Made by a program: the position numbers and the translations under genes
Origin: Pseudooceanicola sp. HF7
GTDB lineage: Bacteria; Pseudomonadota; Alphaproteobacteria; Rhodobacterales; Rhodobacteraceae
DNA length: 64,000 nt
Reading direction: 5' to 3'
Assembly: GCF_011806405.1 (NCBI RefSeq)
Contig: NZ_JAATOW010000022.1
Coordinates: 1 to 64,000 of the forward strand
Shown here: piece after piece, positions 8,005-62,331 of the stretch
How the letters are laid out: each line of letters starts with the position of its first letter
Position numbering within the stretch: the stretch's first letter is position 1
Notes under the pieces: model-generated
What the model saw: the letters and a program-made list of their open reading frames with translations, nothing else
Database searches by the model: none
What the model was told of the DNA's origin: nothing

Positions 8005-8028
8005 GAAAAAGGGCAGCCAAGGCTGCCC
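8005..8028 (-). terminator. Intrinsic terminator of the 46-residue ORF
   Basis: Read on the minus strand, GGGCAGCC, loop TT, GGCTGCCC, then TTTTTC. It lies 30 bases past the stop of the small minus-strand ORF and supports that ORF as a real transcription unit. Confidence 0.85.
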
Positions 8029-8057
8029 CGTTCCCGATTGATCTGGCCCGATTGAGA

Positions 8058-8198: not shown

Positions 8199-8507
8199 GT
8201 CGCGCTTCCCCAATGACTGACTGTCTTCAAATATATCCGAGGATTCGTTAACAGAGCATCCAAAAATTACGCTTTCTTCATATTTACGATACGTAAATCG
8301 CATAAATACCCGCCGCGCTGCAGAAACCGCGCTGCGGCACAGCAAAAATGCTTGCGTCAAAAATTGGTATACACGCGAAAAATTGGCCATTGATTAGGCA
8401 GTTGCCCAATCTTTGTGGATTTCTCAAGGAAATAACCCTGCGGATCCGTATGGGCCGAACCGTTCCCTAATCGCTGGAATCCCAACGGCTTGCGAAGTGA
8501 TTCGGCC
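8199..8507. other. AT-rich intergenic region with palindrome and direct repeats
   Basis: No gene is called. The region is markedly A+T-rich for this genome. It holds a perfect palindrome ATTTACG-ATA-CGTAAAT (8282-8298) and two copies of AAAAATTGG (8359-8367 and 8378-8386) spaced 19 bases apart. It is 5' to the small minus-strand ORF, so promoter or operator functions are likely. A structured 5' leader cannot be excluded. Confidence 0.5.
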
Positions 8508-8906
8508 TTACAGCCAGTCGCGGAGGATGGGGATCAGGGGAATATCTGCCGGCGGCATGGGGTAATCACGCAGATCGGCCGGGCGCACCCACTTCAGCAC
8601 CTGGCCCTCTTGCGCCTGGGGAATGCCCTCCCAGCGGCGGCAGGCGAAGAGCGGCATGAGCAGGTGGAAGTCATCGTAGCCATGGCTGGCGAAGGTCAGC
8701 GGCGCGAGGCAGGAGTTCCAGGTCTCGATCCCCAGCTCCTCGTGCAGCTCGCGCACCAGGGCGGTTTCCGGGCTTTCGCCCGGTTCCACCTTGCCGCCGG
8801 GAAACTCCCACAGGCCGGCCATGGATTTGCCTTCAGGCCGCTGTGCCAGAAGCACCCGCCCGTCCACGTCGATCAGCGCAACCGCCGAAACCAGCAGAAC
8901 CTTCAC
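8508..8906 (-). CDS. mutT: 8-oxo-dGTP diphosphatase MutT (Nudix hydrolase)
   Basis: A 132-residue Nudix enzyme that hydrolyses oxidised nucleotides such as 8-oxo-dGTP and so prevents A:T to C:G transversions. The full Nudix box is present at about residues 37-59: GGKVEPGESPETALVRE followed by LHEELGI, matching G-x5-E-x7-R-E-x2-E-E-x-G. WEFPGGKVE just before it is typical of the MutT subgroup. The start overlaps the argJ stop by 4 bases (ATGA), indicating translational coupling. The pairing of argJ and mutT is a common alphaproteobacterial arrangement. Confidence 0.9.
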   Translation of the reverse strand: MKVLLVSAVALIDVDGRVLLAQRPEGKSMAGLWEFPGGKVEPGESPETALVRELHEELGIETWNSCLAPLTFASHGYDDFHLLMPLFACRRWEGIPQAQEGQVLKWVRPADLRDYPMPPADIPLIPILRDWL

Positions 8907-10132
8907 GAGCGGTAATCCGCGTTGATGGAGATGTAGCCATGGGTCAGGTCGCAGGTCCAGACGGTGGCGGTGCCCCCGCCAAGGCCCAGGTCGACAGAGA
9001 TGTTGATCTCTTGTTCCTTCATGACGGCCGCGCCCTGTTCCTCGCGGTAGTCGGGCGAGACCCAGCCATTCTCGGCCACAAGGATATCGCCGAACCGGAT
9101 GGTCAGCAGGTCACGATCCGCCGCCGCGCCGCTCTTGCCGATGGCCATGACGACGCGCCCCCAGTTGGGATCCTCGCCAGCGATGGCGGTCTTGATCAGC
9201 GGGGAATTGGCGATGGCCATGGCATGGGTGCGCGCGTCCGCATCGGAGGCCGCGCCTGAGACATGGACCTCTACGAACTTGGTGGCACCTTCGCCGTCCT
9301 TCACCACCTGGTGGCTCAGGTCCAGCATTACGCCGCGCAGGGCCTCGATAAAGGCGGTGCTTTCCGCCGTGACCTCGACCCCGGAAGCGCCCGTGGCACC
9401 CATCAGCAGCGTGTCGGAGGTCGATGTATCGCTGTCCACCGTGATGCAGTTGAAAGTCACGTCAGTCAGTGCGCTCAGCATGGCCTGCAGGGCGCTGCGT
9501 TCCACCTTCGCATCGGTGAAGATATAGACCAGCATCGTCGCCATGTCGGGCGCGATCATGCCGGACCCCTTGGCAATCCCAGCGATCTTCACCGTGCCGC
9601 CCGGAAGCTCCACCGTGGCGGAAGCGCCCTTGGGGAAGGTGTCCGTTGTCATGATGGCCAGCGCGGCCTCTTCGATCTTGCCGCCGTCCTGCGCCGCGAT
9701 CAGCTCATCGACCTTGGCGATGATCCGGTCGTGGGGCAGTCTTTCGCCGATCACGCCAGTAGAGCTGGTGAAGACGCGGGTGGCGGGCAGGCCGGTGGCA
9801 CCTGCCACGGCCTCGCAGATGGCAGAGACCGAGCCGTCGCCGGCTCGGCCTGTGAAGGCATTGGAATTGCCCGAGTTCACGATGATGGCCGCGCCTTCCG
9901 AGGCGTCGCCCCCGACTTTCGCCTGGCAGTCCAGCACGTTGGCGGACCGGGTCTTGGACCGGGTGAAAACCCCCGCGACGCTGCTTCCTGCATCAAGCAT
10001 CGCCAGCATGACGTCACGTCGTCCCTGGTAGCGTACCCCGGCCTCGGCGGTGGCGAAACGCACACCGTCGATCACGGGAAGGTCAGGAAAGGCGGCGGGC
10101 GCCAAGGGGGATGTCGGGATCTTGCCGGCCAT
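8903..10132 (-). CDS. argJ: Bifunctional ornithine acetyltransferase/N-acetylglutamate synthase ArgJ
   Basis: A 409-residue enzyme of arginine biosynthesis that moves the acetyl group from N-acetylornithine to glutamate, closing the cyclic pathway. Key features are AAIIVNSGNSNAFTG (about 81-95) and FTSSTGVIGE (about 121-130). The autocatalytic cleavage site is in MATMLV, between Ala198 and Thr199, Thr199 becoming the nucleophile of the beta chain. The protein ends with the conserved HGYISINADYRS. It lies in a minus-strand operon between the PPIase gene (7-base gap) and mutT (4-base overlap). All key residues are present. Confidence 0.95.
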   Translation of the reverse strand: MAGKIPTSPLAPAAFPDLPVIDGVRFATAEAGVRYQGRRDVMLAMLDAGSSVAGVFTRSKTRSANVLDCQAKVGGDASEGAAIIVNSGNSNAFTGRAGDGSVSAICEAVAGATGLPATRVFTSSTGVIGERLPHDRIIAKVDELIAAQDGGKIEEAALAIMTTDTFPKGASATVELPGGTVKIAGIAKGSGMIAPDMATMLVYIFTDAKVERSALQAMLSALTDVTFNCITVDSDTSTSDTLLMGATGASGVEVTAESTAFIEALRGVMLDLSHQVVKDGEGATKFVEVHVSGAASDADARTHAMAIANSPLIKTAIAGEDPNWGRVVMAIGKSGAAADRDLLTIRFGDILVAENGWVSPDYREEQGAAVMKEQEINISVDLGLGGGTATVWTCDLTHGYISINADYRS

Positions 10133-10139
10133 CAGTGGG

Positions 10140-11024
10140 TCACTCCAACATGGTCATGGTGTCGAGCACGGAGGGATCGATCGCCTCGGCACCGGATTTG
10201 TCCACATCACCATTTGCAGCGAGCTCGTCAATATATTCAGAGGTCACCTGCTCCTGAAGTTGGGCGCGCAGTTCCTCCGCGACATCTTCGAATGCCGGGG
10301 CCTGCTTGCGGGTGTCCATCAGCTTGATGACATGCCAGCCGAAGTTGGATTGGACCGGCTCAGAGATTTCGCCGGGCTCCAGGGCGCGCATGGCTTCGTC
10401 GAAGGGCTGAACCGTCATGCCTTCGGTCATCCAGCCCAGATCGCCGCCGTTCGGGGCGCTCGGACCGGTGGAATTGTCACGCGCCAGCTTGGCGAAGTCT
10501 GTACCGGCTTGATACTGCTCGATAATATCCTTCGCCTCTTCCTCAGTTTCCACAAGGATATGGGCGGCGTTGTATTCTTCCTGGGGCTCGTAGCCATCGC
10601 CGTATTGGTCGTTGTATGCCTGTTTCAGCATGTCTTCGGTGATGGTGTTTTCCAGGTGATGGGACAGCGACACGGCTGCCATCAGGGACCGCTGGGAGTT
10701 CTCCAGGGTCACCGCGACAGAGGGCGGGACCTCTCCGTCATAAGCCTGTTGCAGAAGCTCCTGGTTCACCAGCTGGTCAAGGAGACCGGGGAAAAGGACG
10801 CCCACGGGCATCTGAGCATATTGCTCCGGCAGGGAGGCCCGTGCAGCGATCAGGTTGCCGACCGTGATTTCCGTGTCGCCGACGGTCGCAAGCACGGTGC
10901 CCACGTCGACATCGGCCGGGGCCTCTGCGGTTGTTTCGGCGGGTGCGTTGGTCTGGTCCTGGGCAAAGGCAGCGACAGGCAGGGCGGCCGCGACAAGCGC
11001 GACACGAGCAAGACGATGCAACAT
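10140..11024 (-). CDS. Exported parvulin-type peptidyl-prolyl isomerase
   Basis: A 294-residue PpiC/SurA-like foldase. It has a cleavable signal peptide ending AAFA-QDQ at about residue 22. An N-terminal SurA-like helical chaperone region follows, then the rotamase domain at about 155-250 with AAHILVETEEEAKDI, DNSTGPSAPNGGDLGW and the final FGWHVIKL motif. The location should be the periplasm. It probably helps outer-membrane or secreted proteins fold. It is transcribed ahead of argJ and mutT and divergently from secA, which may be more than coincidence because SecA delivers its clients. Confidence 0.9.
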   Translation of the reverse strand: MLHRLARVALVAAALPVAAFAQDQTNAPAETTAEAPADVDVGTVLATVGDTEITVGNLIAARASLPEQYAQMPVGVLFPGLLDQLVNQELLQQAYDGEVPPSVAVTLENSQRSLMAAVSLSHHLENTITEDMLKQAYNDQYGDGYEPQEEYNAAHILVETEEEAKDIIEQYQAGTDFAKLARDNSTGPSAPNGGDLGWMTEGMTVQPFDEAMRALEPGEISEPVQSNFGWHVIKLMDTRKQAPAFEDVAEELRAQLQEQVTSEYIDELAANGDVDKSGAEAIDPSVLDTMTMLE

Positions 11025-50417: not shown

Positions 50418-52724
50418 TCACTCAGCGACCGGTTTTTGCACTATCCGCAACATCGCATCGTAGTGCTTTTTATCACGCTCCCGAATATACTTCATTGCAC
50501 CATTTGCGGCGCGGTGGCTCTCCTCCACGGTAAGCGCGGGAAGCGAATTCACTGCCTCAATGTCACCATGCGACTCGATTTGGCACACTCGCTCGAGCTG
50601 GTTCATTTCCGCCTGATTTAACCCTTTTATCTTCCCGGAGTCGTCGAATAATGCCTCGGCGAAACTAGCTTTGTCCGGTGCAGCAAATGCCGTGAATATC
50701 TCCAGCAGCTTCCGGATCGCGTTTGGCAAAAGATATAGATAGTCGGCGCTCTGCTTGTCCGAAGCCTCGAATACGACTGAGAAAAGGTATTGGTATTCCG
50801 AATCGTACTTCGCCAAGTGCGATGGCATCTTCACCAACGCTGATTCTCGACTGCCTTTTTCATCGTCACGGCAATCCACGAAAAGCAGCCCTTGAGGCAC
50901 CGTATCCGCGAAATTGACACCTCGGAAAAAGGATCGCTTCGCCATGTGCATGAACTTGAGGTTATGGGTCAGCAAGATGACCTGTGCGACACGTTTCGTG
51001 TGCTTCTTAATCAGGCCGAACGCATAGGTCTGGGCATTGCCGTCAAGGCTCGATATCGGGTCGTCGATTACAACAACGAGACTCTTCTTATCCCGACCTT
51101 CGGCACTAAATTGAGTTAGAAAGAAGCAGAATGTTAGCGCGGTTTTCTCGCCCTCGCTGAGGTTCTGTGCAATCGAGCCATCCGCGCGAACCAATTGGTA
51201 GCCTTCTTCTTTGGATTCTAACAGAATGGAGTTGTGGCCGAGGTACTCGTGAAGCAGTTTGTTGAGTTCGCCGGCCGCAACTCCATGCTTACGAATTTCC
51301 TTGCGCAACGCTTCCGCCTTGTCCTCCAAGGTCTTCGCCGCTTCTCGTGTTTTTTGAACATCTTCCTCGGCATCTGCCGCGTTTCGTTTCAGCTGGCGGT
51401 ATGAAGCTTGTTCGGCCAAGAGCACATGGGCCTTCAGTGCATTTGCGGCGTCATCCTTGCGTTGCTTGAACTGATCATTGATGGAATTGTGCTCGCTGAT
51501 AACTGTGAGCAAAGGGCGTGTGGCATCAATGAACTTGGCTGACCAGTCATGGCCTAGGAGCTTTGTCACGTTGTCGGGAATGCTTTGACTTGCCATAGGG
51601 TTCCGTTGGCGTTCCTCAAGTGCTTCTTGTAGCTCCTTGATTGCTCTACCGCTAGCAAGGACCTCAGACCGGAAGCCGTTTTCGACCTCGCTGAAACCTT
51701 TGGCGAGAGTGGGTTGAACGGCTGACTGTGATGGCAGGTCCTCTAGCCATCCTCTCAGCAGCGAGCGTGACCGCTCGCACCATTCAATAGCCGCTGTGAC
51801 TGCGTTTGTTTGCTCCTGCCAGCTCTCGCTGAACATTGCCGCCAAGGTCTTCCTTCGTTGGTCTGATATCTCGTTGCCACAATGAAGGCATGACGCGAGC
51901 TGGTTTTCTTCGTGATAGTGATGACCCTCAGCTACCCACGCCAACATGTTGGGATGGGTCGTGAGGTCAGACGAAAGCTGCGCGGAAAAGTCCCGCTGAA
52001 TCAGGTCACAAGCAGATTTCACCTCGTCCCGAAATCCCTCGGGCAGTTCGAGGGCTAGGTTAATTTTCGGGAGTGGGTCGGACTGACGAATGATTGTACG
52101 ACATTCGCCAATACTGTCCTCCGTGAGTTTGTCTTGATCCGTGAACTGCTTTTCGGAGTACTCACGGTCGACATTTCCTCTATTGAATTGCTGAGTATAG
52201 CCAGTACCTCTGGCGTCGCGTACGCGTCCGCCTATTTCTGTGCCTTTGTCCTTATATTTTTTCTCTGCAGATTCCTGACTTGTCTTGGCAGTGCGAGCCA
52301 CGGATTCGGCAGTTTTCAGGTCGGCTTCTAGCTGGCGAAGCTCGTTAACCTTTTCGATGTTTTCTTCGTCAATATGGAAGATCGGCAACGCCGAACCGTC
52401 GTCCCATTGAAAGTTGCGGGAAACGAAGTCAGAGTTGAAGACTAGGAGTTGGTTTCCAAGCGGATGTACTAAACTGGCATTGGTTGCTGTAGTTTCGTCG
52501 GAAAACTTGACCTGAAATTTTGCACGTTCATCGATTCCGTTGGCTAGAGAATCTGCTTCCAGAGAGGCAAAAATGCGGGATAGGCTAGTCTTTCCAGACC
52601 CATTGAAGCCATAAATAATTGTTTTTCTTGTGAAATCGGTGTCAGGACTATGAGACTTGTGGTCGCGCCAAATGCCTAAACCGCTGATCTGAACAAGCTT
52701 CTCTACAAAGATGGTTTCTGGCAT
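50418..52724 (-). CDS. AAA ATPase, RloC/PrrC-like putative anticodon nuclease
   Basis: A 768-residue protein. An SMC/ABC-type ATPase is split by a long coiled-coil region. Walker A GFNGSGKTS is at 39-47. A possible zinc hook CLHC is at 279-282 within charged helices (about 120-480). The ABC signature NLSEGEKTAL is at 521-530, Walker B VVIDDP at 551-556 with D-loop SSLD, and the switch THN at 586-588. The C-terminal part has Arg671-x3-Glu675 (RKLLE) and Ser718-His719, matching in order the R/E/H triad reported for PrrC. Known relatives cut tRNA anticodon loops in phage-infected cells. Two hand-counted 60-base lines gave 30 and 31 G+C, well below the neighbours, so it was probably acquired. No restriction-modification genes are adjacent. 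The start is uncertain; ATG 52724 is preferred. Confidence 0.78.
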   Translation of the reverse strand: MPETIFVEKLVQISGLGIWRDHKSHSPDTDFTRKTIIYGFNGSGKTSLSRIFASLEADSLANGIDERAKFQVKFSDETTATNASLVHPLGNQLLVFNSDFVSRNFQWDDGSALPIFHIDEENIEKVNELRQLEADLKTAESVARTAKTSQESAEKKYKDKGTEIGGRVRDARGTGYTQQFNRGNVDREYSEKQFTDQDKLTEDSIGECRTIIRQSDPLPKINLALELPEGFRDEVKSACDLIQRDFSAQLSSDLTTHPNMLAWVAEGHHYHEENQLASCLHCGNEISDQRRKTLAAMFSESWQEQTNAVTAAIEWCERSRSLLRGWLEDLPSQSAVQPTLAKGFSEVENGFRSEVLASGRAIKELQEALEERQRNPMASQSIPDNVTKLLGHDWSAKFIDATRPLLTVISEHNSINDQFKQRKDDAANALKAHVLLAEQASYRQLKRNAADAEEDVQKTREAAKTLEDKAEALRKEIRKHGVAAGELNKLLHEYLGHNSILLESKEEGYQLVRADGSIAQNLSEGEKTALTFCFFLTQFSAEGRDKKSLVVVIDDPISSLDGNAQTYAFGLIKKHTKRVAQVILLTHNLKFMHMAKRSFFRGVNFADTVPQGLLFVDCRDDEKGSRESALVKMPSHLAKYDSEYQYLFSVVFEASDKQSADYLYLLPNAIRKLLEIFTAFAAPDKASFAEALFDDSGKIKGLNQAEMNQLERVCQIESHGDIEAVNSLPALTVEESHRAANGAMKYIRERDKKHYDAMLRIVQKPVAE

Positions 52725-52933
52725 TTCCCTACCGTCATAATTTCTTGCGATCATAATGCAGGAAGATGCTTGCACATATTACGATCGGTTGCCAACTGAT
52801 CCATTTTGGCGACAAATCCTGACAGCACTGTGTAAAGCCCGGCCCGAGGCCACAAGCGCCGTGTCTGCAAGCTTACGCACTGCTGCCGTTCGTGACATGC
52901 GCAGCGAAGGTCTGCTTCCCGCCCAACCAACCA

Positions 52934-53004: not shown

Positions 53005-54522
53005 TCAGAGGGCGAAGAGGTCCTGTTCGACGCCGGCTGTCTCGAACAGGTAGTCTCGGCTGGCCGTCAGTTCGGAGCGCAGGCGGGCGATGTCGAAGCC
53101 GACGACCTGGCCCTGCCACTTGCGGGGGCGGCCCGCGACCAGGACCGTGTCGACGTTGGTACGCTCCATCAGGGTGACAACCGCGCCGGCCGCGTTGTTC
53201 AGGGGCGCGACGTTCAGCGCCTCTGCGTCCAGCAGGACGATATCGGCGGCCTTGCCGGGGGTCAGGCTGCCGGTCACGCGGTCCAGCTTCAGGCCCTTCG
53301 CACCGTCGATCGTGGCGTGGCGCAGGGCGTCTGCGCATTGCATCAGCGCGGGGTAGTCCTGGGCGCCGGAGAGCGCGGCCTCGTTCACGAACATGCGCTG
53401 CAGGGTGATGAGGCCCCGCATCTGGGTGAAGGGATCCGCCGTCATCGTGCATTCCACGTCCGAGGACAGCGAGGTCGTCATGCCAAGGTCCAGCGCCTTC
53501 TGGATCGGCGGGGTGCCGTGGCGCATGTGCATCTCGATCGGCACGGCAAGGGAGACATGCGCGCCGGCGTCCGCGGCCCGTTGCCAGGCCATGTCTGACA
53601 TGCCGGTCATGTGGATGAAGATGTTGTCCTCTCCGAACTCGCCGGCCTCTGCCAGCTGGTCGAAGGTGCCGGCCATGCCGAAGGTGCCCACGACATGCAG
53701 CGCGATGGGCAGGCCAAGTTCGCGCCCGATGGCCCAGGAGGTCTCGTACCCCGGCAGGTAGATTTCGCCGCCCATGACCATGGTCAGCAGCTGGTCATCG
53801 GACGAGAAGTACTGCTGCTTGATGCGCCGGGCGTCCTGCGGGTACTGGGAGCGGTCGCCGTGGCCCTCGAAATAGCCGAAGACGGCGCGGCGGCCTGCAT
53901 CGGCCAGCCCTTCGATCGCGGCATCGGAATGTTCCGGGCTGTGGTGGATCTGGCTGACATCCATCACCGTGGTGACCCCGGCGTCGATCTGTGAGATGCC
54001 GGCGAAGAGCTCGTTGATGTAGACGTCCTCGGGGCGGTAGGCCATCGAGAACTGCTGCAGGATGGTTTCGTAGTAGTTGGTCGCGTTCACCTCGCGGCCG
54101 TCGTTCACCAGGATGCCATGGGCCAGCTGGCTGCGCAGGGCGGTTTCGAACTGGTGGTGGTGGGTGTCGATGAAGCCGGGCATGACGATCTTGCCGGCGG
54201 CGTCGATCACGGTGGCGTCCGGGGCGTCGATGCTGGCGGCCACCTGGACGATCCGGTCGCCTTCGATCAGCACGTCGCCGCTGGCGAAGTTGCCGACCGC
54301 GTCATCCATCGACAGGATCACCCCGCCGCGGATCAGGGTGCGGCGACCGGGCTCTCCCATGCCCTCGGGGATGGTGCTTTCGGCCACCTGCTGGGCCCTG
54401 GCACTGGTGCCAAAGGTCGCGGTGGCGGCCATGGCGGCACCGCCGATGGCGCTGGTTTTCAGGAAGTCGCGCCGTGACGGGCATGGCGCCTTGGGGCGGC
54501 GGGGATCGCAGAGTCTGCACAT
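53005..54522 (-). CDS. Tat-exported amidohydrolase
   Basis: A 505-residue metal-dependent hydrolase with a clear Tat signal (PSRRDFLKTSAIGG at about 15-28, cleavage near SARA-QQ). The composite domain includes RTLIRGGVILSMDD at the start and PGFIDTHHHQFE with the HxH metal pair. Further candidate metal or active-site His residues are in IALHVVG and FIHMTGMS, and an Asp is in SLSSDVE. LTPGKAADIVLLDAE follows. It resembles chlorohydrolase/cytosine-deaminase type amidohydrolases, but periplasmic location is unusual for a deaminase. It is downstream of the iclR gene and likely belongs to the catabolic cluster, perhaps releasing an aromatic or N-containing substrate outside the cell. Confidence 0.82.
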   Translation of the reverse strand: MCRLCDPRRPKAPCPSRRDFLKTSAIGGAAMAATATFGTSARAQQVAESTIPEGMGEPGRRTLIRGGVILSMDDAVGNFASGDVLIEGDRIVQVAASIDAPDATVIDAAGKIVMPGFIDTHHHQFETALRSQLAHGILVNDGREVNATNYYETILQQFSMAYRPEDVYINELFAGISQIDAGVTTVMDVSQIHHSPEHSDAAIEGLADAGRRAVFGYFEGHGDRSQYPQDARRIKQQYFSSDDQLLTMVMGGEIYLPGYETSWAIGRELGLPIALHVVGTFGMAGTFDQLAEAGEFGEDNIFIHMTGMSDMAWQRAADAGAHVSLAVPIEMHMRHGTPPIQKALDLGMTTSLSSDVECTMTADPFTQMRGLITLQRMFVNEAALSGAQDYPALMQCADALRHATIDGAKGLKLDRVTGSLTPGKAADIVLLDAEALNVAPLNNAAGAVVTLMERTNVDTVLVAGRPRKWQGQVVGFDIARLRSELTASRDYLFETAGVEQDLFAL

Positions 54523-54582
54523 GTTTTCTCTCCTCCAGAAACGGTGTGTCAGGTCGTTGGTGTCTCCGGCATCGCTCCCGGA

Positions 54583-55386
54583 TCAGGGGGCCAGCACCGA
54601 TCCGAGTACCGGGTAGCGCGTCAGCTGATGTGCGATATGCGAGGCCGTGGTGCGCAGCTCCGGCAGGCGTTCCTCTACCAGTTTCTCTGGCGTGACGAGG
54701 CCGGTGTAGCCGGAGCTGTTCAGGGCCGCGATAGTGCGCCCCTCGGCATTCCTGATGGGCACCGCGATGGCGGTGATCCCGTAGTCAAGCTGGTCGACGG
54801 TGGTGGCGTAGCCGTTCCGGCAGACCTCCTCTATTTCCCTGGCAAAGTGATCGGGGTCGATGCAGGTCTTGGCTGTCAGCGCCTCCGGCTTCAGTTCGGC
54901 CAGCCAGGCTTCGCGTTCGGCATCCGGCAGGCCCGCGACCAGGACGCGGCCCATGGAGGTCGCGAAGGCGGGGTAGCGCACCCCGACATTCGCGGCCGCC
55001 CGCCGCGCCCGCTGGACGGAGACATGGGCGATGTAGATCACGTCATGCCCGTCCAGCGTCGCGATGGAGGACGCGTCGCCGAAGGTGTCCACCAGGCTGC
55101 GCAGCTCCGGTTGCAGGACTTCCTCGATCCCCGTGGCGCCGTAGAAGGCAGAGCCCAGGGTCAGGATCCGCGGCGTCAGGTGAAACCGTTTCCCGCTGCG
55201 TCCTATGAACCCGAGGTGCTCCAGCGTGATCAGGCTGCGCCTGGCGGCGGCGGGGGACAGGTTCACTGTCTTGGCCACCTCGCTCAGGGTCATCTCTGGG
55301 CGGGATCCGTCGAGGCTTTGCAGGATCGCGAGACCCTTTGCCAGGCTGTCGACGAATTCGGACGGTTTGTCAGCGGGATTGGTCAA
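54583..55386 (-). CDS. IclR-family regulator of the catabolic cluster
   Basis: A 267-residue regulator of the PcaR/PobR-like subgroup. The winged helix is in LAKGLAILQSLDGSRPEMTLSEV and LSPAAARRSLITLEHLGFI, and the effector domain is in YIAHVSVQRARRAAANVGVRYPAFATSMGRVLVAG. Members of this subgroup commonly control aromatic-acid degradation. The gene lies 5 bases downstream of the dioxygenase gene and upstream of the amidohydrolase, so the three are probably co-transcribed. A plausible target is the divergent control region at 56256-56386. Confidence 0.87.
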   Translation of the reverse strand: MTNPADKPSEFVDSLAKGLAILQSLDGSRPEMTLSEVAKTVNLSPAAARRSLITLEHLGFIGRSGKRFHLTPRILTLGSAFYGATGIEEVLQPELRSLVDTFGDASSIATLDGHDVIYIAHVSVQRARRAAANVGVRYPAFATSMGRVLVAGLPDAEREAWLAELKPEALTAKTCIDPDHFAREIEEVCRNGYATTVDQLDYGITAIAVPIRNAEGRTIAALNSSGYTGLVTPEKLVEERLPELRTTASHIAHQLTRYPVLGSVLAP

Positions 55387-55391
55387 TCGGT

Positions 55392-56255
55392 TCAGCCTTC
55401 CGGTGCGAGAATGAAGTCGAACTCGAAAACCGCATCGGGCTTGACGTCAAGCGCGTAGTCGAACTGGTCGGCCTTGCGCAGGGGCTGCACCTTGGCGATG
55501 AGCGATTTGCGCACACCGAAGACGGCGTCGTTGTCGATGTATTCCGTGTTCTCGAAGAAGACTTCGGTGGTGATGTCCGCCATGCCCTTGGCGCGGATGA
55601 TGTAATGCAGGTGCGCGGCGCGCCAGGCGTGGCGGTTGCCGGCGCGCAGCAGCTCGCCCACGGGGCCGTCGTAGGGCACGGTATAGGGCTTGGGCAGCAC
55701 GGTCGTGTAGTAGTAGCGCCCCTCGGAATCGGTGGTGAACTTGGCGCGCAGGTCCATCTTGTCCTGGCCCTGAGCCTGTTCCTGGATGGGGTAGGTGCCC
55801 GCGCCGTCGGCCTGCCAGGTGTCGATGATCGCGCCCGGCAGGGGCTTGTGCAGCGTGTCGGTGACCTTGCCATGAACCAGCACGATGGCGCCGTCGCGCC
55901 CTTCGGACAGGTCGGCGCCCAGTTTCTTTTCCGGGGCATCGTCCAGGTAGAAGGGGCCCAGGTTCGACCCCTCTGTCGCGCCGCCCCGGGTGTTGATCAT
56001 GTCGACCAGCGCAGAGAAGCCGAGCACGTCGGACAGCAGGATGAACTCATGCCGTTCGGGGGTGGATATCTGCCCGCAATCATAGAGAAAATTCAGGACG
56101 CGCATCCATTCGTCATGGGTCACGCCCTGTTCCCGCGTGTAGTCGTGCAGGTGCTCGATCAGGCCGTGCAGAAGCTGTTCGAAGCGGCTGCCCGGCTCTG
56201 TCGCGAAGCTTTCCTTCACGGCGTCTGTGATCTTGTACTGGTTGATGTCGCGCAT
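55392..56255 (-). CDS. Intradiol ring-cleavage dioxygenase, hydroxyquinol 1,2-dioxygenase type
   Basis: A 287-residue non-haem Fe(III) dioxygenase that opens a catechol-type ring between the hydroxyls. An N-terminal helical dimerisation domain (1-95) is followed by NLGPFY and a beta-sandwich with IIDTWQADGAGTY. Likely iron ligands are Tyr155, Tyr191 (KPYTVPYDGPVG), His215 and His217 (AAHLHYI). The sequence pattern fits hydroxyquinol and chlorocatechol dioxygenases more than catA. No maleylacetate reductase gene is nearby, which would normally follow hydroxyquinol cleavage, so the fate of the ring-opened product is open. Confidence 0.87.
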   Translation of the reverse strand: MRDINQYKITDAVKESFATEPGSRFEQLLHGLIEHLHDYTREQGVTHDEWMRVLNFLYDCGQISTPERHEFILLSDVLGFSALVDMINTRGGATEGSNLGPFYLDDAPEKKLGADLSEGRDGAIVLVHGKVTDTLHKPLPGAIIDTWQADGAGTYPIQEQAQGQDKMDLRAKFTTDSEGRYYYTTVLPKPYTVPYDGPVGELLRAGNRHAWRAAHLHYIIRAKGMADITTEVFFENTEYIDNDAVFGVRKSLIAKVQPLRKADQFDYALDVKPDAVFEFDFILAPEG

Positions 56256-56359
56256 GTCTCTCTCCCTTTGCGAACATCGCGAGGCCTCTCTCCTGCCCCC
56301 GACAATGATGCTTGACGGGACCGTAATCTGCCTCCTACACTTTCGGCAAGAGCAAATAA

Positions 56360-56374
56360 TTTCGGTATGCGAAA
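56360..56374. promoter_or_regulatory. Candidate IclR operator in the divergent control region
   Basis: TTTCG-GTATG-CGAAA, a 5-bp inverted repeat just before the citryl-CoA-lyase-like gene. TTTCGG recurs 19 bases upstream (56341). The position suits control by the adjacent IclR regulator. Confidence 0.35.
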
Positions 56375-56386
56375 AAGGGAAGCGTA

Positions 56387-57190
56387 ATGCGCATCGGAAA
56401 ACAGGATCAGTCCTTTACAGCCATCGCGACGTCAGACGCGGAAAGCATCACCGTGCGGGGCAAGGATCTGTGCGACGAGCTGATCGGGAAGATCGACTTT
56501 ACCGATTACTTCTGGCTGCTGGTACTGGGGGAACATCCCACGGCGAAGCAGCGCCGCATGATGGATGCCTGCCTTGTGGCGATTGCCGAACATGGGCTGG
56601 TGCCCTCTGTCCAGGCCGCGCGGATGACGCTGGCGGCCGGGCCGGACGCCTGGCAGGGGGCCATGTCCGCCGGGCTGCTGGGCATGGGCAGCGTGGTCGC
56701 CGGGTCGTCAGAGGCCGCCGCCTATTTCCTGCAGGAGGTGCTGGACAAGGCCGAGGCCGATGACACGGACGTGGAAACCGCGGCGATTGCCAGCCTGAAG
56801 GCCTGTGCCGCAGCGAAGAAGAAGGTGCCCGGCCTGGGCCACCCGCAGCATGATTCCGGCGATCCCCGCGCCAATGTCCTGCTGGAGATCGCGGATGATA
56901 TCGAGGTCAGCGGGCGCTACGTCGACTGCCTGCGCCTCCTTGGCAAACACGCGCCCGAGATCACGGGACGGCCTCTGCCGATCAACGTGTCCGGCGCGAT
57001 CCCGGCCACGATCCTGGACGCAGGCTTCCCGTTGCAGGCCGTGAAGGCCGTGCCGCTGCTGGCCCGTGCCGCCGGTCTTTCCGCGCATCTCTACGAAGAG
57101 AGCCTGCGGTCCATCGGCTTCATCATGTCCAACGAGGCCGACAAGGCCATCACCTATGACGGCCCCAAGTCGTCGAAAAACAAGGGCTGA
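56387..57190 (+). CDS. Citryl-CoA-lyase-like small citrate-synthase-family protein
   Basis: A 267-residue protein resembling the C-terminal half of citrate synthase and the lyase domain of ATP-citrate lyase. The CoA/catalytic loop GLGHPQHDSGDPR (149-161) aligns with the citrate synthase GxGH...DPR motif. The first catalytic His of citrate synthase is missing, with GSVVAGSSEAA in its place, so C-C bond cleavage rather than synthesis is more likely. The usual catalytic Asp (NVDG/NVDF) appears as Ser in NVSGA (200-204). The next gene is a CoA transferase 11 bases on, suggesting activation of an acid to its CoA ester followed by retro-Claisen/aldol cleavage. Confidence 0.75.
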   Translation: MRIGKQDQSFTAIATSDAESITVRGKDLCDELIGKIDFTDYFWLLVLGEHPTAKQRRMMDACLVAIAEHGLVPSVQAARMTLAAGPDAWQGAMSAGLLGMGSVVAGSSEAAAYFLQEVLDKAEADDTDVETAAIASLKACAAAKKKVPGLGHPQHDSGDPRANVLLEIADDIEVSGRYVDCLRLLGKHAPEITGRPLPINVSGAIPATILDAGFPLQAVKAVPLLARAAGLSAHLYEESLRSIGFIMSNEADKAITYDGPKSSKNKG

Positions 57191-57201
57191 GGAGAGCGTC
57201 C

Positions 57202-58347
57202 ATGGTCAAGATTCTGAAAGGCGTGCGCGTCGTCGAACTGGGCACCTATATCACCGGTCCGGCCTGCGGCATGCATCTGGCGGATCTGGGCGCGGATGTC
57301 GTCAAGGTCGAACGCCCCGGCACCGGGGATCCCTTCCGGGCCTTCAAGGGCGGGCTCTATTCGCCCCATTACCAGACCTACAACCGCAACAAGCGCTCGA
57401 TCGCGCTGGATACCAAGGATCCCGAGGACCTTGCCGTCTTCCACGGGCTGATCGAGACGGCGGACATCTTCGTGCAGAACTTCCGCCCCGGCGTGGCCGA
57501 GCGCCTGGGCGCGGGCGAAGAGGAGCTGCGCAAGCTGAACCCCAAGCTGATCTATTGCGCCATTTCCGGCCTTGGGCCATCGGGGCCGGCAAAGGATCGG
57601 CCGGTCTATGACTCGGTCGCGCAGGCCGCCAGCGGCTACCTGCGGCTGCTGACCCCGCCGGAGAACCCGCGCGTGATCGGCCCGGCCATCGCCGATGCGG
57701 TCACCGGGCAATATGCTTCCATGGCCTGTATCGCGGCGCTGTTTGACCGTGAGCGGGGCGGGAAGGGGCGGCGCATCGACATCTCCATGCTGGAGGCGAT
57801 GTGCCATTTCAACCTGGACAGCTTCACCCATTACTATTCGGTCGGAGAGGTCATGGGCCCGCTGTCGCGCCCCACGGTGTCGCAAAGCTACACCTTTAAA
57901 TGTGCGGACGGAAAGTGGATCGCCTTCCATCTTTCCAGCCCCGAGAAGTTCTGGGAAGGCCTGCTGGAGGCCACCGGCCAGGAGCAGCTGAAGGAGGATC
58001 CGCGCTTTGCCGAGCGGCTGCAGCGGATCGAGCACCAGGATGATCTGATTGCCCATTTCACGCCTGTCTTCGCCAGCGAGCCGCGGGATGTCTGGTGCGA
58101 TCGGCTGCGCGCGGCCGAGGTGCCCTATTCCCCGGCTTACGAAAGCTCCGAAGCGCTGGAGGATCCGCAGGCACAGCACCTGGGCATCAAGGTCAGCGCC
58201 CCAAGTGCCGAGATCGGCACCTTCACCACGGTGCGCCCGCCCTACAACTTCGACGGCGCCGCCGAGACCGAGGTGATGGCGCCGCCGCAACTGGACGAAC
58301 ACGGCGCGGAACTGCGCGCCGAGGTCGCCCGGCGCAAGGCCGGCTAG
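57202..58347 (+). CDS. CaiB/BaiF class III CoA-transferase
   Basis: A 381-residue family III CoA transferase. The N-terminal signature GVRVVELGTYITGPACGMHLADLGADVVKVE, followed by PGTGDPFR, and the RNKRSIALDTKDPED segment are characteristic. The Asp nucleophile should lie in the YDSVAQAASG / GPAIADAVTGQYAS region. It would move CoA from a donor thioester onto the carboxylate substrate of the pathway, cytoplasmically. The acceptor acid cannot be deduced; adjacency to the lyase-like protein suggests a hydroxylated or oxo polycarboxylate. Confidence 0.9.
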   Translation: MVKILKGVRVVELGTYITGPACGMHLADLGADVVKVERPGTGDPFRAFKGGLYSPHYQTYNRNKRSIALDTKDPEDLAVFHGLIETADIFVQNFRPGVAERLGAGEEELRKLNPKLIYCAISGLGPSGPAKDRPVYDSVAQAASGYLRLLTPPENPRVIGPAIADAVTGQYASMACIAALFDRERGGKGRRIDISMLEAMCHFNLDSFTHYYSVGEVMGPLSRPTVSQSYTFKCADGKWIAFHLSSPEKFWEGLLEATGQEQLKEDPRFAERLQRIEHQDDLIAHFTPVFASEPRDVWCDRLRAAEVPYSPAYESSEALEDPQAQHLGIKVSAPSAEIGTFTTVRPPYNFDGAAETEVMAPPQLDEHGAELRAEVARRKAG

Positions 58348-58373
58348 GCGGCAGACCTTCGGGAGGGGGACAT

Positions 58374-58772
58374 ATGACAGAGATCATCAAGGCGGTTCCG
58401 GCCGCGGACGTGAAAGAGGCCAGCAAGGAGATGCTGCAAAAGCAGCTCTTCGCCATCTTCACCAGCCCGGTCAACGGGATGGGTCCGGTCTTTGACCACC
58501 TGGAAGAGCACCTGGCCTTCCAGGTGCAGCTGGAAAAGGACGGCATCCTCTATGCCGCCGGGCCGATGTGGACCGACGACGAGGAAAGCTGGGAAGGCGA
58601 GGGGCTTGTCGTGATCCGCGCGCAGTCGCGGGCAGAGGCAATGCGGATCGCGCAGGGCGATCCGATGCACAAGGCGGGCGCGCGGGAATTCCGCGTGCGC
58701 CCGTGGATGATCAACGAAGGCACCGTGACGGTCCGGCTCGACATGTCCAGCCAGAGCTTCGCGATCGTCTGA
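58374..58772 (+). CDS. YciI-like protein
   Basis: A 132-residue protein with a ferredoxin-like YCII domain: KQLFAIFTSPVNGMG, EEHLAFQVQLEKDGILYAAGP and QGDPMHKAGAREFRVRPWMI. In other pathways YciI-type proteins act as small lyases or dehydrochlorinases on ring compounds. The His in EEHLAF is the usual conserved residue, and the C-terminal RPWMINEG extension is common to catabolic members. The start ATG 58374 has GGGAGGGGG upstream. It lies between the CoA transferase gene and the TRAP genes, so it belongs to the same operon. Confidence 0.78.
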   Translation: MTEIIKAVPAADVKEASKEMLQKQLFAIFTSPVNGMGPVFDHLEEHLAFQVQLEKDGILYAAGPMWTDDEESWEGEGLVVIRAQSRAEAMRIAQGDPMHKAGAREFRVRPWMINEGTVTVRLDMSSQSFAIV

Positions 58773-58795
58773 ACTTTCTTTGGGAGGAGAAAACC

Positions 58796-59875
58796 ATGAA
58801 CTACTTGCTTCGCACCGCGCTTGTCGGCGCGCTTGTCATGCCCGGCGCGGCCTTCGCGCAGGAAACGATCAGCCTTACGGTGGCCTCCAGCCACCCGACG
58901 GTCATTCCCTGGGTGGGCATGATCAAGACCCACTTCATGGCCCGCACGGATGAGATCCTGGCGGAGTCCGGCGAGTACCAGATCGACTGGAACGAGGCCT
59001 TCGGCGGCCAGCTTTACAAGGCCAACGCCACGCTGGATTCGGTCGAGCAGGGCATCACGGATGTCGGCTGGGTCTTCTCCATGCTGGAGCCAGCCAAGCT
59101 GCCGATGAGCCAGGCGTCTTCCTACGCGCCCTTCACCACCGCCGATGCGGCGCTGCAGCTGGAGGTCATGCAGGAGCTCTTTGAAACCAACGAGGCCTTC
59201 CGAGAGGAATGGGAGCAGTACAACCTCAAGGTGCTCGGCTTCACCGGGACGGACAGCTACGATGTCTACACGTCAGAGCCGATCGATGGCTTTGCCGATC
59301 TCGACGGGATGAAACTGTCTGCGCCGGGCGTGCTGGGCAACTGGCTGCGCGGCACCGGGGCGAATGCCGTGGATGGGTCGCTGACCAGCTTCTACACCGA
59401 TATCCAGACCGGCGTCTCCGATGGCGTGCTGTCCCTTGCGCTGGGGGTTCTGCCCGCGAAGATCTACGAGGTCGCGCCGCATGTGACCAAGGTCGACATG
59501 GGCGTCGCCTTCTCCGGGGCCGTCGCGATCAACCGCGACAGCTGGGATGCGCTGCCCGAACCCGTGCAGAAGGCCATGATCGAGGCCGGGGCCTATTACA
59601 CGGAATCCCACGGGCGTGACCTGAACGAACGCCATGCCGCCGCGCTTGAGATGATGCTTGAAGCCGGCGCGGACCAGTCCACCCCGGTGGAGATCACCCC
59701 GATGAGCGAAGAAGACCGCAAGGCCTGGGTGACCGCGATGCCCAATATCGCCAAGGAATGGGCCGATGGGCTGGAAGAGCGTGGCATGCCCGCGCGGGAG
59801 TTCATGCAGTCCTACATCAACGGCGTGCGGGAGCGTGGCGGAGAGCCGGTGCGCGCCTGGGACGACGAGCTTTGA
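58796..59875 (+). CDS. dctP: TRAP transporter substrate-binding protein DctP
   Basis: A 359-residue periplasmic binding protein. The signal peptide MNYLLRTALVGALVMPGAAFA is followed by a DctP-type fold (ISLTVASSHPTVIPWVGM, FGGQLYKANATLDSVEQGITDVGWVF). The conserved arginine for carboxylate contact would be in NWLRGTGAN. GGGAGGAG lies close upstream of the ATG. Together with dctQ and dctM it imports an organic acid, probably the substrate of the adjacent catabolic genes. Confidence 0.88.
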   Translation: MNYLLRTALVGALVMPGAAFAQETISLTVASSHPTVIPWVGMIKTHFMARTDEILAESGEYQIDWNEAFGGQLYKANATLDSVEQGITDVGWVFSMLEPAKLPMSQASSYAPFTTADAALQLEVMQELFETNEAFREEWEQYNLKVLGFTGTDSYDVYTSEPIDGFADLDGMKLSAPGVLGNWLRGTGANAVDGSLTSFYTDIQTGVSDGVLSLALGVLPAKIYEVAPHVTKVDMGVAFSGAVAINRDSWDALPEPVQKAMIEAGAYYTESHGRDLNERHAAALEMMLEAGADQSTPVEITPMSEEDRKAWVTAMPNIAKEWADGLEERGMPAREFMQSYINGVRERGGEPVRAWDDEL

Positions 59876-59890
59876 TCGCGAGTCCCTGAC

Positions 59891-60460
59891 GTGACCCAGT
59901 CGAAAAATGAACAAACCTGTGCCGGAGGATCCCGGCACAGCGCTCTTGCCGGTCGCCTCTGGGGCGGCGTGGTGAATGCGCTGGCGGCCTTCGGGACCGC
60001 GCTGATCGCCGGCCTGATGCTGCTGATCTGCGCGGATATCGTGGCGCGCAACGGCATGGGGGCCTCTTTGCCCCTGGTGTCAGAGCTGGGCGCGCTGCTG
60101 CTGGTGATGATCGTCTGCCTGCAGTTCGGGGCCACCATCCGCGCCGACCGCCTTGCGCGGGCGGGGCTTTTCCTTGATCCCCTTCGCCAGCGCCGGCCCC
60201 GCGTCAGCGCGGCGCTCGAGGCGCTCTTCTGCCTGGTCGGCGCCTGGATGATCGGCCTGATGGCCTGGGCCACCTGGGGCGTGCTGACCAAGGACTGGGA
60301 CCGGCGCGAGTTCATCGGCACCCCCGGCCTGGGCACGCTGCCCACATGGCCCTTCCGGGTCTTCATCCTGCTGGGCCTGACGGTCGCGGCAGTGGAATTC
60401 GCGGTGCGCGCCGTGCGGAATATCCGCGCCGCCGCAGGCTATGCAGAGGTAACACGATGA
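59891..60460 (+). CDS. dctQ: TRAP transporter small permease DctQ
   Basis: A 189-residue inner-membrane subunit with four predicted helices (ALIAGLMLLICADIVARNGMG is typical of DctQ, then LLLVMIVCLQFGATIRADRLARA). GTG at 59891 is used because no good ATG is in frame. The stop overlaps the ATG of dctM (ATGA), as in many TRAP operons. Confidence 0.85.
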   Translation: MTQSKNEQTCAGGSRHSALAGRLWGGVVNALAAFGTALIAGLMLLICADIVARNGMGASLPLVSELGALLLVMIVCLQFGATIRADRLARAGLFLDPLRQRRPRVSAALEALFCLVGAWMIGLMAWATWGVLTKDWDRREFIGTPGLGTLPTWPFRVFILLGLTVAAVEFAVRAVRNIRAAAGYAEVTR

Positions 60461-61770
60461 CTCCGCTGGAGATTGGCTATTACGCCGTCGGTGGCCTTCT
60501 GGTCCTGATCTACCTTGGCATGCCCATCGGCATCGGGATGCTTGGCGTATCCTTCCTGGGGGTGACCCTTATCCGCAACGATGACGTCGCCCTGCGGATG
60601 CTGGGCGCGGCGGGCAACGACAGCCTGCGCGAATACCTTTACGCGGTGGTGCCGCTTTTCGTGCTGATGGGCTTGCTGGTCACCGTGTCCAACGTGGGCA
60701 AGGATACCTTTGACGTCTTCCAGAGGATGCTGCGCCGGATGATGGCGGGCCTGGGCATCGCGACGGTCTTTGCCAATGCGGTCTTTGCCTCCATCACCGG
60801 GATCTCCATCGCCTCTGCCACCGTGTTCAGCCGGGTCGCCGTGCCGGAGATGACGCGCCACGGCTATTCCAAGCGGTTCGCCACCGGGGTGGTCGCGGGA
60901 TCCTCTGTCCTGGGCATGATGATCCCGCCCTCGCTTCTGATGATCGTCTACGCGGTGCTGGCAGAGGAATCCGTGGGCCGCATGTTCCTGGCCGGGATCG
61001 GCCCGGGCATCCTGCTGGCGCTGGTCTTTTCCGCGACGATCCTGCTGATGGCCGGCTGGCGCAAGGAGCTGGTCTATGCCCGCCCCGATGACGCGCCCGA
61101 GTCCGAGGATTTCACCTTTGGAGAAATCGTCAGGAAGGCGCTGCCGATCCTGGCGCTGATGCTGGTGGTCCTGGGCGGTCTTTACGGCGGTTTCCTGAAC
61201 CCGACCGAGGCCGGGGCCGCCGGTGCCGCCGGGGCGCTGGTGATCGCCCTGATGCGCCGCGCCCTTCCGGCGCGCACGCTCTGGAACCTGATGGTGGAGA
61301 CCGGGCAGATCACCGTTTCGGTGCTGTTCCTGATCCTCGCCGCGACCTTCTTCAGCCGGATGCTGGCGCTGTCCGGCGTGCCGCGCGAACTGGCGGCGCT
61401 GTTCCTGGACAGCTCCATCGGGCCCTTCGGCTTCCTGCTGGTCTACCTGGTGCTGATCGTGCTGCTGGGCTGCCTGATCGATTCCATCTCGATCATGCTG
61501 ATCGTCCTTCCGATCGCCCTGCCGGTGGCAGAGGCCGCCGGGTTTGACCTGATCTGGTTCGGGGTTCTGACCGTCGTCGCGGTGGAGATGGGGTTGCTGA
61601 CACCGCCCTTCGGCCTATCAGTCTATACCATCAAGTCCGCCATCGACGATCCGGAGCTTTCGGTCGGCGACATCTTCCGCGGCGCCTTTCCCTTCGTCCT
61701 GGCGATGGTGGTGGCGCTGGCGATCCTTATTGCCTTCCCGTCGATCTCGACGTGGCTGGCACGACTTTGA
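60457..61770 (+). CDS. dctM: TRAP transporter large permease DctM
   Basis: A 437-residue polytopic membrane protein of the DctM/ion-transporter superfamily with about 12 helices. Diagnostic stretches are IYLGMPIGIGMLGVSF, ITGISIASATVFSRVAVPEM, MIPPSLLMIVYAVLAEESVGRMF, and LNPTEAGAAGAAGALVIA. It uses a sodium or proton gradient to move the substrate delivered by DctP. The frame is open further upstream, but the ATG at 60457 matches the family and couples to dctQ. Confidence 0.9.
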   Translation: MTPLEIGYYAVGGLLVLIYLGMPIGIGMLGVSFLGVTLIRNDDVALRMLGAAGNDSLREYLYAVVPLFVLMGLLVTVSNVGKDTFDVFQRMLRRMMAGLGIATVFANAVFASITGISIASATVFSRVAVPEMTRHGYSKRFATGVVAGSSVLGMMIPPSLLMIVYAVLAEESVGRMFLAGIGPGILLALVFSATILLMAGWRKELVYARPDDAPESEDFTFGEIVRKALPILALMLVVLGGLYGGFLNPTEAGAAGAAGALVIALMRRALPARTLWNLMVETGQITVSVLFLILAATFFSRMLALSGVPRELAALFLDSSIGPFGFLLVYLVLIVLLGCLIDSISIMLIVLPIALPVAEAAGFDLIWFGVLTVVAVEMGLLTPPFGLSVYTIKSAIDDPELSVGDIFRGAFPFVLAMVVALAILIAFPSISTWLARL

Positions 61771-61785
61771 AACGAAAGAGGCCCC

Positions 61786-62331
61786 ATGGCACATATCCTT
61801 TTCATCCCCGGCAGCCTGCGAGAGGCCTCCTCTTCCCGGGCGACGGCCCGCGCCCTGGCGGCGCGGCTGCCGGCGGGGACCACCCATGACACCGTCGATC
61901 CCGGCCGCCTGCCGCATTACAACGCGGACATAAAGGACGACCCGGAGGTCGCGGCCTTCCTGGAGAAGCTGAAAGGGGCGGACGGCGTGGTCTTCGTGTC
62001 GCCGGAGTACAATTACAGCATTCCCGGCCTGCTGAAGAACGCGATCGACTGGGGGTCGCGCCCGGCCTTCGAGTCCCCCTTCAAGGACAAGCTCTGCCTG
62101 ATCGTCTCGACCTCGGGCGGGGCGCTTGGCGGGGTGCGGGCGCAATCGCACCTGAAGTACGTGCTGAACGGCATGCTGGCGCGGGTCCATCCCTGCAAGG
62201 AGATCGTCGTGCCGATGGCCAACGGCAAGGTCGTCGACGGCATGCTGGAAGATGACGCGATCCTGGAGTTCGCCGAAGAGGTGATGGGCGACTTCCTTTC
62301 CGCCTGCAAGGGCGGCGCGGCGGCGGGCTGA
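61786..62331 (+). CDS. NADPH-dependent FMN reductase
   Basis: A 181-residue flavodoxin-like enzyme. HILFIPGSLREASSSRATARAL binds FMN phosphate, and SPEYNYSIPGLLKNAIDWGSRP is the family hallmark. It could supply reduced flavin to a partner, reduce quinones, or act on azo/quinone intermediates. As the last gene of the TRAP operon (15 bases after dctM), it may reduce a quinone form of the aromatic substrate so that ring cleavage can proceed; this is inference. Confidence 0.85.
   Translation: MAHILFIPGSLREASSSRATARALAARLPAGTTHDTVDPGRLPHYNADIKDDPEVAAFLEKLKGADGVVFVSPEYNYSIPGLLKNAIDWGSRPAFESPFKDKLCLIVSTSGGALGGVRAQSHLKYVLNGMLARVHPCKEIVVPMANGKVVDGMLEDDAILEFAEEVMGDFLSACKGGAAAG

Follow-up and report, generated by a model that had tools for sequence, protein, structure and literature searches.

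A conserved gene island in Pseudooceanicola sp. HF7 links a ring-cleavage dioxygenase to a citrate-synthase-fold protein that lacks the catalytic aspartate

Results

Ten genes in two divergent groups

The stretch analysed here (the window) comprises 64,000 nucleotides of Pseudooceanicola sp. HF7 (positions 1 to 64,000 of contig NZ_JAATOW010000022.1), and our subject is an island at its positions 53005–62331 in which a ring-cleavage dioxygenase (Diox), a class III coenzyme A (CoA) transferase (CoAT) and a protein of the citrate synthase fold that resembles citryl-CoA lyase (the lyase-like protein) are encoded together with a regulator, an amidohydrolase (AmdH), a tripartite ATP-independent periplasmic (TRAP) transporter and accessory proteins (Table 1). 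The initial annotation had placed ten genes here and assigned them to families; the open reading frames and Pfam bear out all ten positions, and the Pfam names are close to those first given. Its remark that no maleylacetate reductase or thiolase lies nearby agrees with what we find, as neither is seen among the genes scanned, which were the ten of the island and those nearby at 49222, 50418 and 62622. The standard beta-ketoadipate route was considered and rejected because its genes are not there.

Table 1. Positions of the island genes and predicted control elements in the window.
Feature	Position	Strand	Basis
AmdH amidohydrolase	53005..54522	-	Pfam Amidohydro_1 (E 1.6e-23) and TAT_signal match
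IclR-family regulator	54583..55386	-	Pfam IclR; nearest PcaR/PcaU/PobR group by NCBIfam TIGR02431
Diox, intradiol ring-cleavage dioxygenase, own subgroup	55392..56255	-	Pfam Dioxygenase_N/C; Dioxygenase_C E 9.3e-39
Predicted sigma-70-like promoter: TTGACG, 18-base spacer, TACACT	56312..56341	+	Read from sequence
Operator candidate: TTCGGCAAGAGCAAA and palindrome TTTCGGTATGCGAAA, directly 3' of the -10	56342..56374	.	
Lyase-like, citrate-synthase-fold protein	56387..57190	+	Pfam Citrate_synt E 1.1e-24; NCBIfam NF004868, 304.8 bits
CoAT, class III CoA transferase	57202..58347	+	Pfam CoA_transf_3 E 2.3e-102
YciI-family protein, accessory	58374..58772	+	Pfam YCII E 1.5e-11
DctP solute-binding protein	58796..59875	+	Pfam
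DctQ	59891..60460	+	Pfam
DctM	60457..61770	+	Pfam
FMNr, quinone reductase-like flavoprotein, ChrR/YieF group	61786..62331	+	Pfam FMN_red E 2.4e-37

The island is a conserved unit

The lyase-like gene has a patchy distribution: of 100 related genomes, counting that of the window, 10 have it at E 1e-50 or better, and these include seven of the 22 from the same genus. The closest named homologues of its product, from Pseudooceanicola species, are 90–91% identical. GTDB genomes scanned with this product as query yielded 44 loci (L012–L055), in which that protein is thus present by selection and which serve as our unbiased set; their flanks extend to about 10 kb at most and some are shorter, and some gene losses are contig ends. 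CoAT, the IclR regulator and one class of ring-cleavage enzyme accompany the lyase-like gene in 43 of the 44 loci, with an IclR gene in each of those 43 and AmdH in 39. DctP (35/43), FMNr (27/43) and YciI (24/43) are less constant, and a MetE-like gene occurs in 12 of the 43. Five plasmid loci (L101, L102, L109, L112 and L117), hand-picked for carrying a LigAB extradiol dioxygenase and added to the 43 to make a set of 48, have the same core; in L101 branched-chain-type ATP-binding cassette (ABC) genes lie nearby and no TRAP gene was found. The exception, L041, has the lyase-like gene alone, with no CoA transferase, dioxygenase, regulator or operator-like site near it; this gene (L041:6223-7017) is 69% identical to that of the window and keeps the serine described below.

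The initial annotation had read the two divergent groups as a single pathway unit, a reading that rare co-occurrence in relatives would have spoken against. In our comparison the two sides occur together in 43 of 44 loci with a conserved operator-like site between them, and they form one conserved unit. Its core is the dioxygenase, the IclR regulator, the lyase-like protein and CoAT, nearly always with AmdH; uptake, the quinone reductase and YciI are accessory. We rejected a chance neighbourhood since the grouping recurs in 43 of 44 loci.

A conserved palindrome lies downstream of the predicted promoter

Between the divergent groups, 5′ of the lyase-like gene (56312–56374), the predicted promoter is followed by the operator candidate. 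The core of the palindrome is present in 44 of 45 loci (the window and L012–L055), in loci of both ring-cleavage classes alike, against a background of 81 in 4500 random 200-base stretches, the pattern having been derived from the same sequences in which it was counted. With up to 3 mismatches allowed, the full motif has a single match in the genome (4.27 Mb). The site also occurs in plasmid loci L109 and L117 and was not found in L101, L102 or L112, where the lyase-like gene follows a gene on the same strand. The candidate site may be bound by the IclR regulator, and repression would suit it because it falls just after the -10 element. The regulator scores 254.3 bits with TIGR02431, below the cut-off of 284.75, and this is still its best family by far.

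The dioxygenase has Asn in place of Val at a presumed pocket position

The structures nearest to Diox are mostly hydroxyquinol or chlorohydroxyquinol 1,2-dioxygenases and PnpC, so that its description in the initial annotation as hydroxyquinol-type is right as to the nearest family. Its iron ligands (Y155, Y191, H215 and H217) and Asn98 are invariant in 38 of 38 island enzymes. Asn98 precedes the LGPF motif at a position that we take to line the pocket (Val107 in 1tmx), and the residue there is Val in 8r2v and in a second dioxygenase of locus L049. Because Asn98 replaces Val, we use "hydroxyquinol-type" as a family label and not as a substrate assignment. Elsewhere in the HF7 genome are an adjacent pair of intradiol genes on contig 10, probably PcaGH, and two LigB-family genes.

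Two unrelated classes of ring-cleavage enzyme alternate in the same island

The ring-cleavage enzyme is intradiol in 34 of the 43 GTDB loci and LigAB extradiol in 9, with both classes in none and neither in none; with the five plasmid loci the split is 34 intradiol to 14 LigAB of 48, again with no locus having both or neither. A six-frame profile search agrees with this split. L049 and L051 have a second intradiol gene, so the unit has one class rather than one gene; the two L049 enzymes are 39% identical, and the second looks the more canonical. In L018, LigB is above the Pfam cut-off (PF02900, E 8.3e-29) and its LigA partner below it (E 7.9e-4; 20 bits, cut-off 25.3). On a quick tree of the lyase-like and CoAT proteins (54 rows, to be read with a long-branch warning), the class changes three times, each change being forced by starred branches: at L036, a lone LigAB locus inside an intradiol group, at a group of ten, and at a deep group resting on hand-picked plasmid and distant loci. 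Gain and loss are not distinguishable on this tree. Two species of Roseibium (L022, from Roseibium marinum, with LigAB, and L023) differ in class and both have AmdH, IclR, CoAT, YciI, DctPQM and FMNr.

This exchange bears on the substrate. Intradiol and extradiol cleavage normally give different products, and with a hydroxyl on the adjacent carbon, chemical reasoning leads to a diacid from both. A ring with three vicinal oxygens is favoured because both classes could then yield an open-chain diacid; we regard a vicinal triol as a real possibility that falls a little short of an even chance. Extradiol cleavage of gallate gives 4-oxalomesaconate, according to PMC10512348. The hydroxyquinol substrate implied by the initial annotation loses ground, since replacement by LigAB in 9 of 43 loci is not readily explained by hydroxyquinol chemistry.

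The lyase-like protein has lost the catalytic aspartate

NCBIfam names the lyase-like protein "citryl-CoA lyase" with a score above its cut-off, and the structure nearest to its model (predicted local distance difference test score 86) is the Hydrogenobacter citryl-CoA lyase 6hxp (E 5e-12, template modelling scores 0.77/0.80, root-mean-square deviation 7.6, 32% identity). The island protein is like 6hxp in fold, length and both catalytic histidines, and differs from it in having Ser202 in place of the catalytic Asp (NVDG in 6hxp) and a class III CoA transferase as its gene partner. H69, H152 and S202 are invariant in 50 of 50 distinct homologues, the window's included (the 32-row alignment A2 is a selection from the lyase-like rows). 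A paralogue of the lyase-like gene in the same genome retains the Asp.

To place this substitution more widely, a search of 299 genomes with NF004868 gave 29 places: the window, 11 further proteins without the Asp (Ser, Asn or Thr instead) and 17 with it. The 28 places outside the window and 17 plasmid loci, picked among 40 of 82 records, make up 45 wider loci, with Ser, Asn or Thr at the Asp position in 28 and Asp in 17. Within the stretches retrieved for this evenly drawn set of 29 places, 3 of 11 Asp-less proteins (4 of 12 with the window) have an intradiol or LigB gene nearby, versus 0 of 17 Asp-bearing ones (Fisher P 0.05; 0.02 with the window). In the pooled set, mostly close kin, a dioxygenase is present at 56 of 72 Asp-less loci (43 of the 44 GTDB loci and 10 of the 17 plasmid loci). 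The trio of dioxygenase, CoA-activating gene and Asp-less protein occurs in Burkholderiales loci too: a Burkholderia glumae plasmid has, in order, an intradiol dioxygenase, the lyase-like protein, a hydroxylase, CoAT, LeuC and LeuD, and Cupriavidus necator has the lyase-like protein, an AMP-ligase and a dioxygenase, with a more distant CoA transferase further on. A Sinorhizobium locus runs lyase-like, CoAT, LigB, a small gene and an amidohydrolase, and an Aminobacter locus TRAP, hydrolase, MetE/URO-D-like, lyase-like, CoAT and LigB.

The initial annotation had proposed CoA activation followed by C–C cleavage by the lyase-like protein. A CoA step after ring opening is plausible; ordinary citryl-CoA-lyase chemistry is weakened, the catalytic Asp being absent. 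We expect altered chemistry because the Asp is lost and because, according to PMC10115795, the D1026A mutant of human ATP-citrate lyase forms citryl-CoA and no acetyl-CoA.

CoA transferase, amidohydrolase, transporter and flavoprotein

CoAT has an invariant D165 (47/47), and among solved structures it is closest to YfdE and succinate-hydroxymethylglutarate CoA transferase. AmdH has invariant metal ligands (H121, H123, H276, H304 and D355; 40/40) and Gly in 39 of 40 at the position of the HxxE Glu, which is the acid of deaminases and chlorohydrolases. The best folds for its model (predicted local distance difference test score 78) are AtzA and deaminases, and the best 50 matches listed contain this group only. 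In a scan of 398 genomes of the phylum, AmdH had only 3 matches besides the window at E 1e-60, 39% identical. Its N-terminus carries MCxxC in 39 of 39 homologues and the twin-arginine RRD motif in just 17 of 39; export would thus be optional, the periplasmic entry step first proposed for this enzyme is weakened, and we rejected twin-arginine-exported AmdH as an essential step.

In DctP, Ser175 (Ser in 33/33) aligns to the Arg of 4n6d and 4nap. In classical TRAP binding proteins this Arg binds the substrate carboxylate, so that the transported compound may be something other than a simple carboxylate; another DctP residue could replace the Arg in carboxylate binding. The nearest solved relative of FMNr is the chromate reductase 4hs4 (E 1.7e-26), placing it among the ChrR/YieF chromate/quinone reductases. 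The initial annotation had made it the partner of an oxygenase. There is no monooxygenase among the ten genes, and a role as flavin reductase for a missing one was rejected on account of its ChrR/YieF kin. A redox-labile phenol substrate would fit the flavoproteins of the island and of the wider loci. A flavodoxin-fold FMN_red protein, WrbA-like, is found in wider locus L114 and a similar one, by eye, in L097. YciI, given a necessary step at first, is hard to see as such with its presence in 24 of 43 loci; no solved relative of it was found by sequence. TftG-type chlorohydroxyquinol dehydrochlorinases presumably belong to the YciI family.

Further genes near the island and its relatives

A MetE C-terminal-like protein (PF01717; for example L031:5615-6637) is often encoded beside AmdH and possibly takes methyl groups off methoxylated precursors; a MetE-like gene is also present in wider loci L091, L093 and L097. 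Sugar-acid genes lie beside some islands (UxuA by Pfam in L022, its cluster in L029 and L055), as do Gfo/Idh/MocA by Pfam in the left flank of L054 and, by eye, sugar ABC genes in flanks (L045 and L054, left), and the island might be tied to aromatic glycosides. A small vicinal oxygen chelate (VOC) protein lies within about 5 kb of CoAT in the Asn-bearing relatives L091, L093, L094, L097 and L114. In the window, a gene for an AAA_13 ATPase (50418-52775, minus strand) stands between an arginase-family gene and the island; its best PADLOC match is the candidate defence family PDC-S06 (E 1.8e-137), and the stretch has a low G+C content (0.52–0.56, versus 0.59–0.69 in other 2-kb windows).

Discussion

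We propose that the island may be one regulon for the degradation of a polyhydroxylated aromatic compound. The dioxygenase would open a ring that most likely has three adjacent oxygens (pyrogallol type), giving an open-chain diacid; CoAT would attach CoA to this ring-fission acid, either directly or after hydration or tautomerisation, in which YciI might take part; and C–C cleavage by the Asp-less citrate-synthase-fold enzyme would release acetyl-CoA together with a small acid, dicarboxylic or keto. Were the ring to have an extra hydroxyl (a 1,2,3,5-pattern of phloroglucinol-type origin), ring opening would produce 2,4-dioxoadipate; this is a beta-keto acid, and its CoA ester could undergo hydrolytic retro-Claisen cleavage to acetyl-CoA and oxaloacetate. 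The flavoprotein would keep the phenol reduced, the TRAP system would import a precursor that the amidohydrolase would prepare, and the IclR regulator would control both sides from the intergenic site. A single pathway shared by the dioxygenase, CoAT and the lyase-like protein is probable. Our preference goes to hydrolytic retro-Claisen cleavage on the grounds that it depends on CoA activation, yields acetyl-CoA and would account for the missing thiolase; as an assignment of the reaction it is tentative, and rather unlikely. The explanation as a whole, namely a vicinal-triol regulon with CoA activation and Asp-less cleavage, strikes us as evenly balanced between right and wrong.

Several observations weigh against this explanation. 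The reported product of PcaHG from pyrogallol is a pyrone and not an open acid, so that convergence on the same product may need a lactonase, and the two dioxygenase classes might serve different substrates. Outside the island clade the association with a dioxygenase breaks down: no intradiol or LigB gene was found at 8 of the 19 wider Asp-less loci that have CoAT (L091–L095, L097, L111 and L116), nor at 16 of the 72 Asp-less loci overall. A small glyoxalase-superfamily protein is encoded at five of these eight wider loci (L091, L093, L094, L097 and, with a match of 35% identity, L095); that this VOC protein might be a third kind of ring-cleavage enzyme is a guess, Pfam saying only Glyoxalase superfamily. 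In L113 (Sinorhizobium fredii NGR234 plasmid, 3616-10792; a near relative of L105), the Asp-less gene follows genes that by eye resemble propionyl-CoA carboxylase and methylmalonyl-CoA mutase, with no dioxygenase found near it, which suggests other uses of the Asp-less branch, and some Asp-less genes stand with LeuCD and a transporter (L116), which fits an ordinary hydroxyacyl-CoA lyase. Loss of the Asp could also mean weak or no catalysis. AmdH is absent from 4 of the 43 loci, two of them near a contig end. The substrate, the order of steps and the reactions are what we infer from the observed genes, linkage, class exchange, site conservation and Asp loss.

Four other explanations were weighed. 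Both ring-cleavage classes could belong to separate pathways with different substrates that have borrowed a common CoA module, as the two enzymes are unrelated and a distant genome (L096, L140) has LigAB amid FAD hydroxylase, glyoxalase-superfamily and Amidohydro_2 genes that are not seen in the island. Loci of the two classes are, however, alike in regulator, AmdH, CoAT, lyase-like protein and operator-like site, and usually in the transporter, and the Roseibium pair differ in class and share everything else listed for them above, so we think this unlikely. Equally, the Asp-less protein may be no lyase at all; it could instead hydrolyse CoA thioesters, act as a hydratase or assist CoAT with no catalytic role of its own. 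The replacement of Asp by Ser, Asn or Thr in 72 loci and the failure of D1026A to make acetyl-CoA point this way; both catalytic histidines are nevertheless kept in 50 of 50 homologues, the linkage to the CoA transferase is near total in the island (43/44), and D1026A is a weak guide, given that the authors of PMC10115795 argue for an allosteric role of that ATP-citrate lyase domain. We consider this, too, improbable.

The known hydroxyquinol pathway consists of an intradiol dioxygenase, maleylacetate reductase and thiolase, and the island shares with it the intradiol family and the logic of polyphenol ring opening. It differs in that no reductase or thiolase is seen and CoAT and an Asp-less citrate-synthase-fold protein are present, and in that its dioxygenase is exchangeable with LigAB and has Asn98 for Val, with the four iron ligands kept. 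A variant without the reductase can be drawn, in which the dioxygenase would give maleylacetate, CoAT maleylacetyl-CoA, and the lyase-like protein with water acetyl-CoA and maleate, followed by YciI or a LeuCD-type hydratase. LeuCD-family maleate hydratases exist, the nearest solved dioxygenases are hydroxyquinol-type, LeuC and LeuD follow CoAT on the Burkholderia plasmid, and LeuC or LeuCD homologues are found in five further wider loci (L092, L095, L103, L106 and L116). LigAB cleavage of hydroxyquinol would by chemical reasoning give an aldehyde, however, and not maleylacetate; Asn is found in all 38 island enzymes where 8r2v and the second L049 dioxygenase have Val; and a LeuC homologue is found in 0 of the 44 GTDB island loci at E 1e-8. 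We thus doubt this variant. The genome itself has two matches to a maleylacetate reductase query (33% identity; the query, from L098, was named by eye and not by NCBIfam).

A route from gallate or O-methylgallate appears more improbable still. The ring would yield 4-oxalomesaconate, whose hydrated, citrate-like form, 4-carboxy-4-hydroxy-2-oxoadipate, would be activated with CoA and cleaved in the manner of citryl-CoA. In favour, gallate has the vicinal triol pattern, its hydrated ring-opening product is similar to citrate, 12 of 43 GTDB loci have a MetE-like gene, and wider locus L114 lies beside LigB, Amidohydro_2, RraA-like and PrpF genes, this LigB being only 29% identical and perhaps part of a neighbouring pathway. 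Set against this, the cleavage would leave 2,4-dioxoglutarate, an unusual product, and would call for the Asp that is lacking. At another place in the HF7 genome, an RraA-type gene that shares 74% identity with the one in L114 has PIG-L-like, PrpF-like and VOC-like neighbours (by eye), so gallate may already be served. Compared with the gallate (gal/lig) meta pathway, the island has in common a LigAB-type enzyme in 9 of 43 GTDB loci and vicinal triol chemistry, and differs in that 4-oxalomesaconate hydratase, tautomerase and 4-carboxy-4-hydroxy-2-oxoadipate aldolase are all missing from its ten genes. The HF7 genome does have an aldolase homologue, on a different contig; a LigJ-type query found nothing in this genome, an empty answer that shows nothing.

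The Herbaspirillum fde and Variovorax ifc pathways for the flavonoid A-ring resemble the proposed regulon in the oxidative opening of a phloroglucinol-type ring, one option here. The ifc pathway uses a glyoxalase-like enzyme and hydrolases, and neither "citryl" nor "CoA transferase" occurs in the main text of PMC11069340. The open-access literature searched gave no description of the central step, in which CoAT and an Asp-less citrate-synthase-fold protein would act after ring opening, such an absence being weak evidence. We tentatively entertain the possibility that this is an undescribed aromatic route, widespread in Pseudomonadota, in which a new Asp-less (Ser/Asn/Thr) branch would cleave ring-fission CoA esters and intradiol, LigAB and possibly VOC enzymes would be exchanged since their products from vicinal triols converge. 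The link between Asp loss and a dioxygenase, far weaker in the even sample (4/12) than in the full but biased one (56/72), makes this possibility somewhat less likely.

If this is true, the name "citryl-CoA lyase" is wrong for many of the genes that bear it, and some of these are markers for a recognisable aromatic pathway. The route could help to find ways of using pyrogallol-type lignin products, for which PMC6628648 names as future work a dioxygenase whose product can be metabolised. A natural exchange of intradiol for extradiol enzymes within one regulon would, if true, offer a clean evolutionary test of the constraints that ring chemistry places on the design of pathways.

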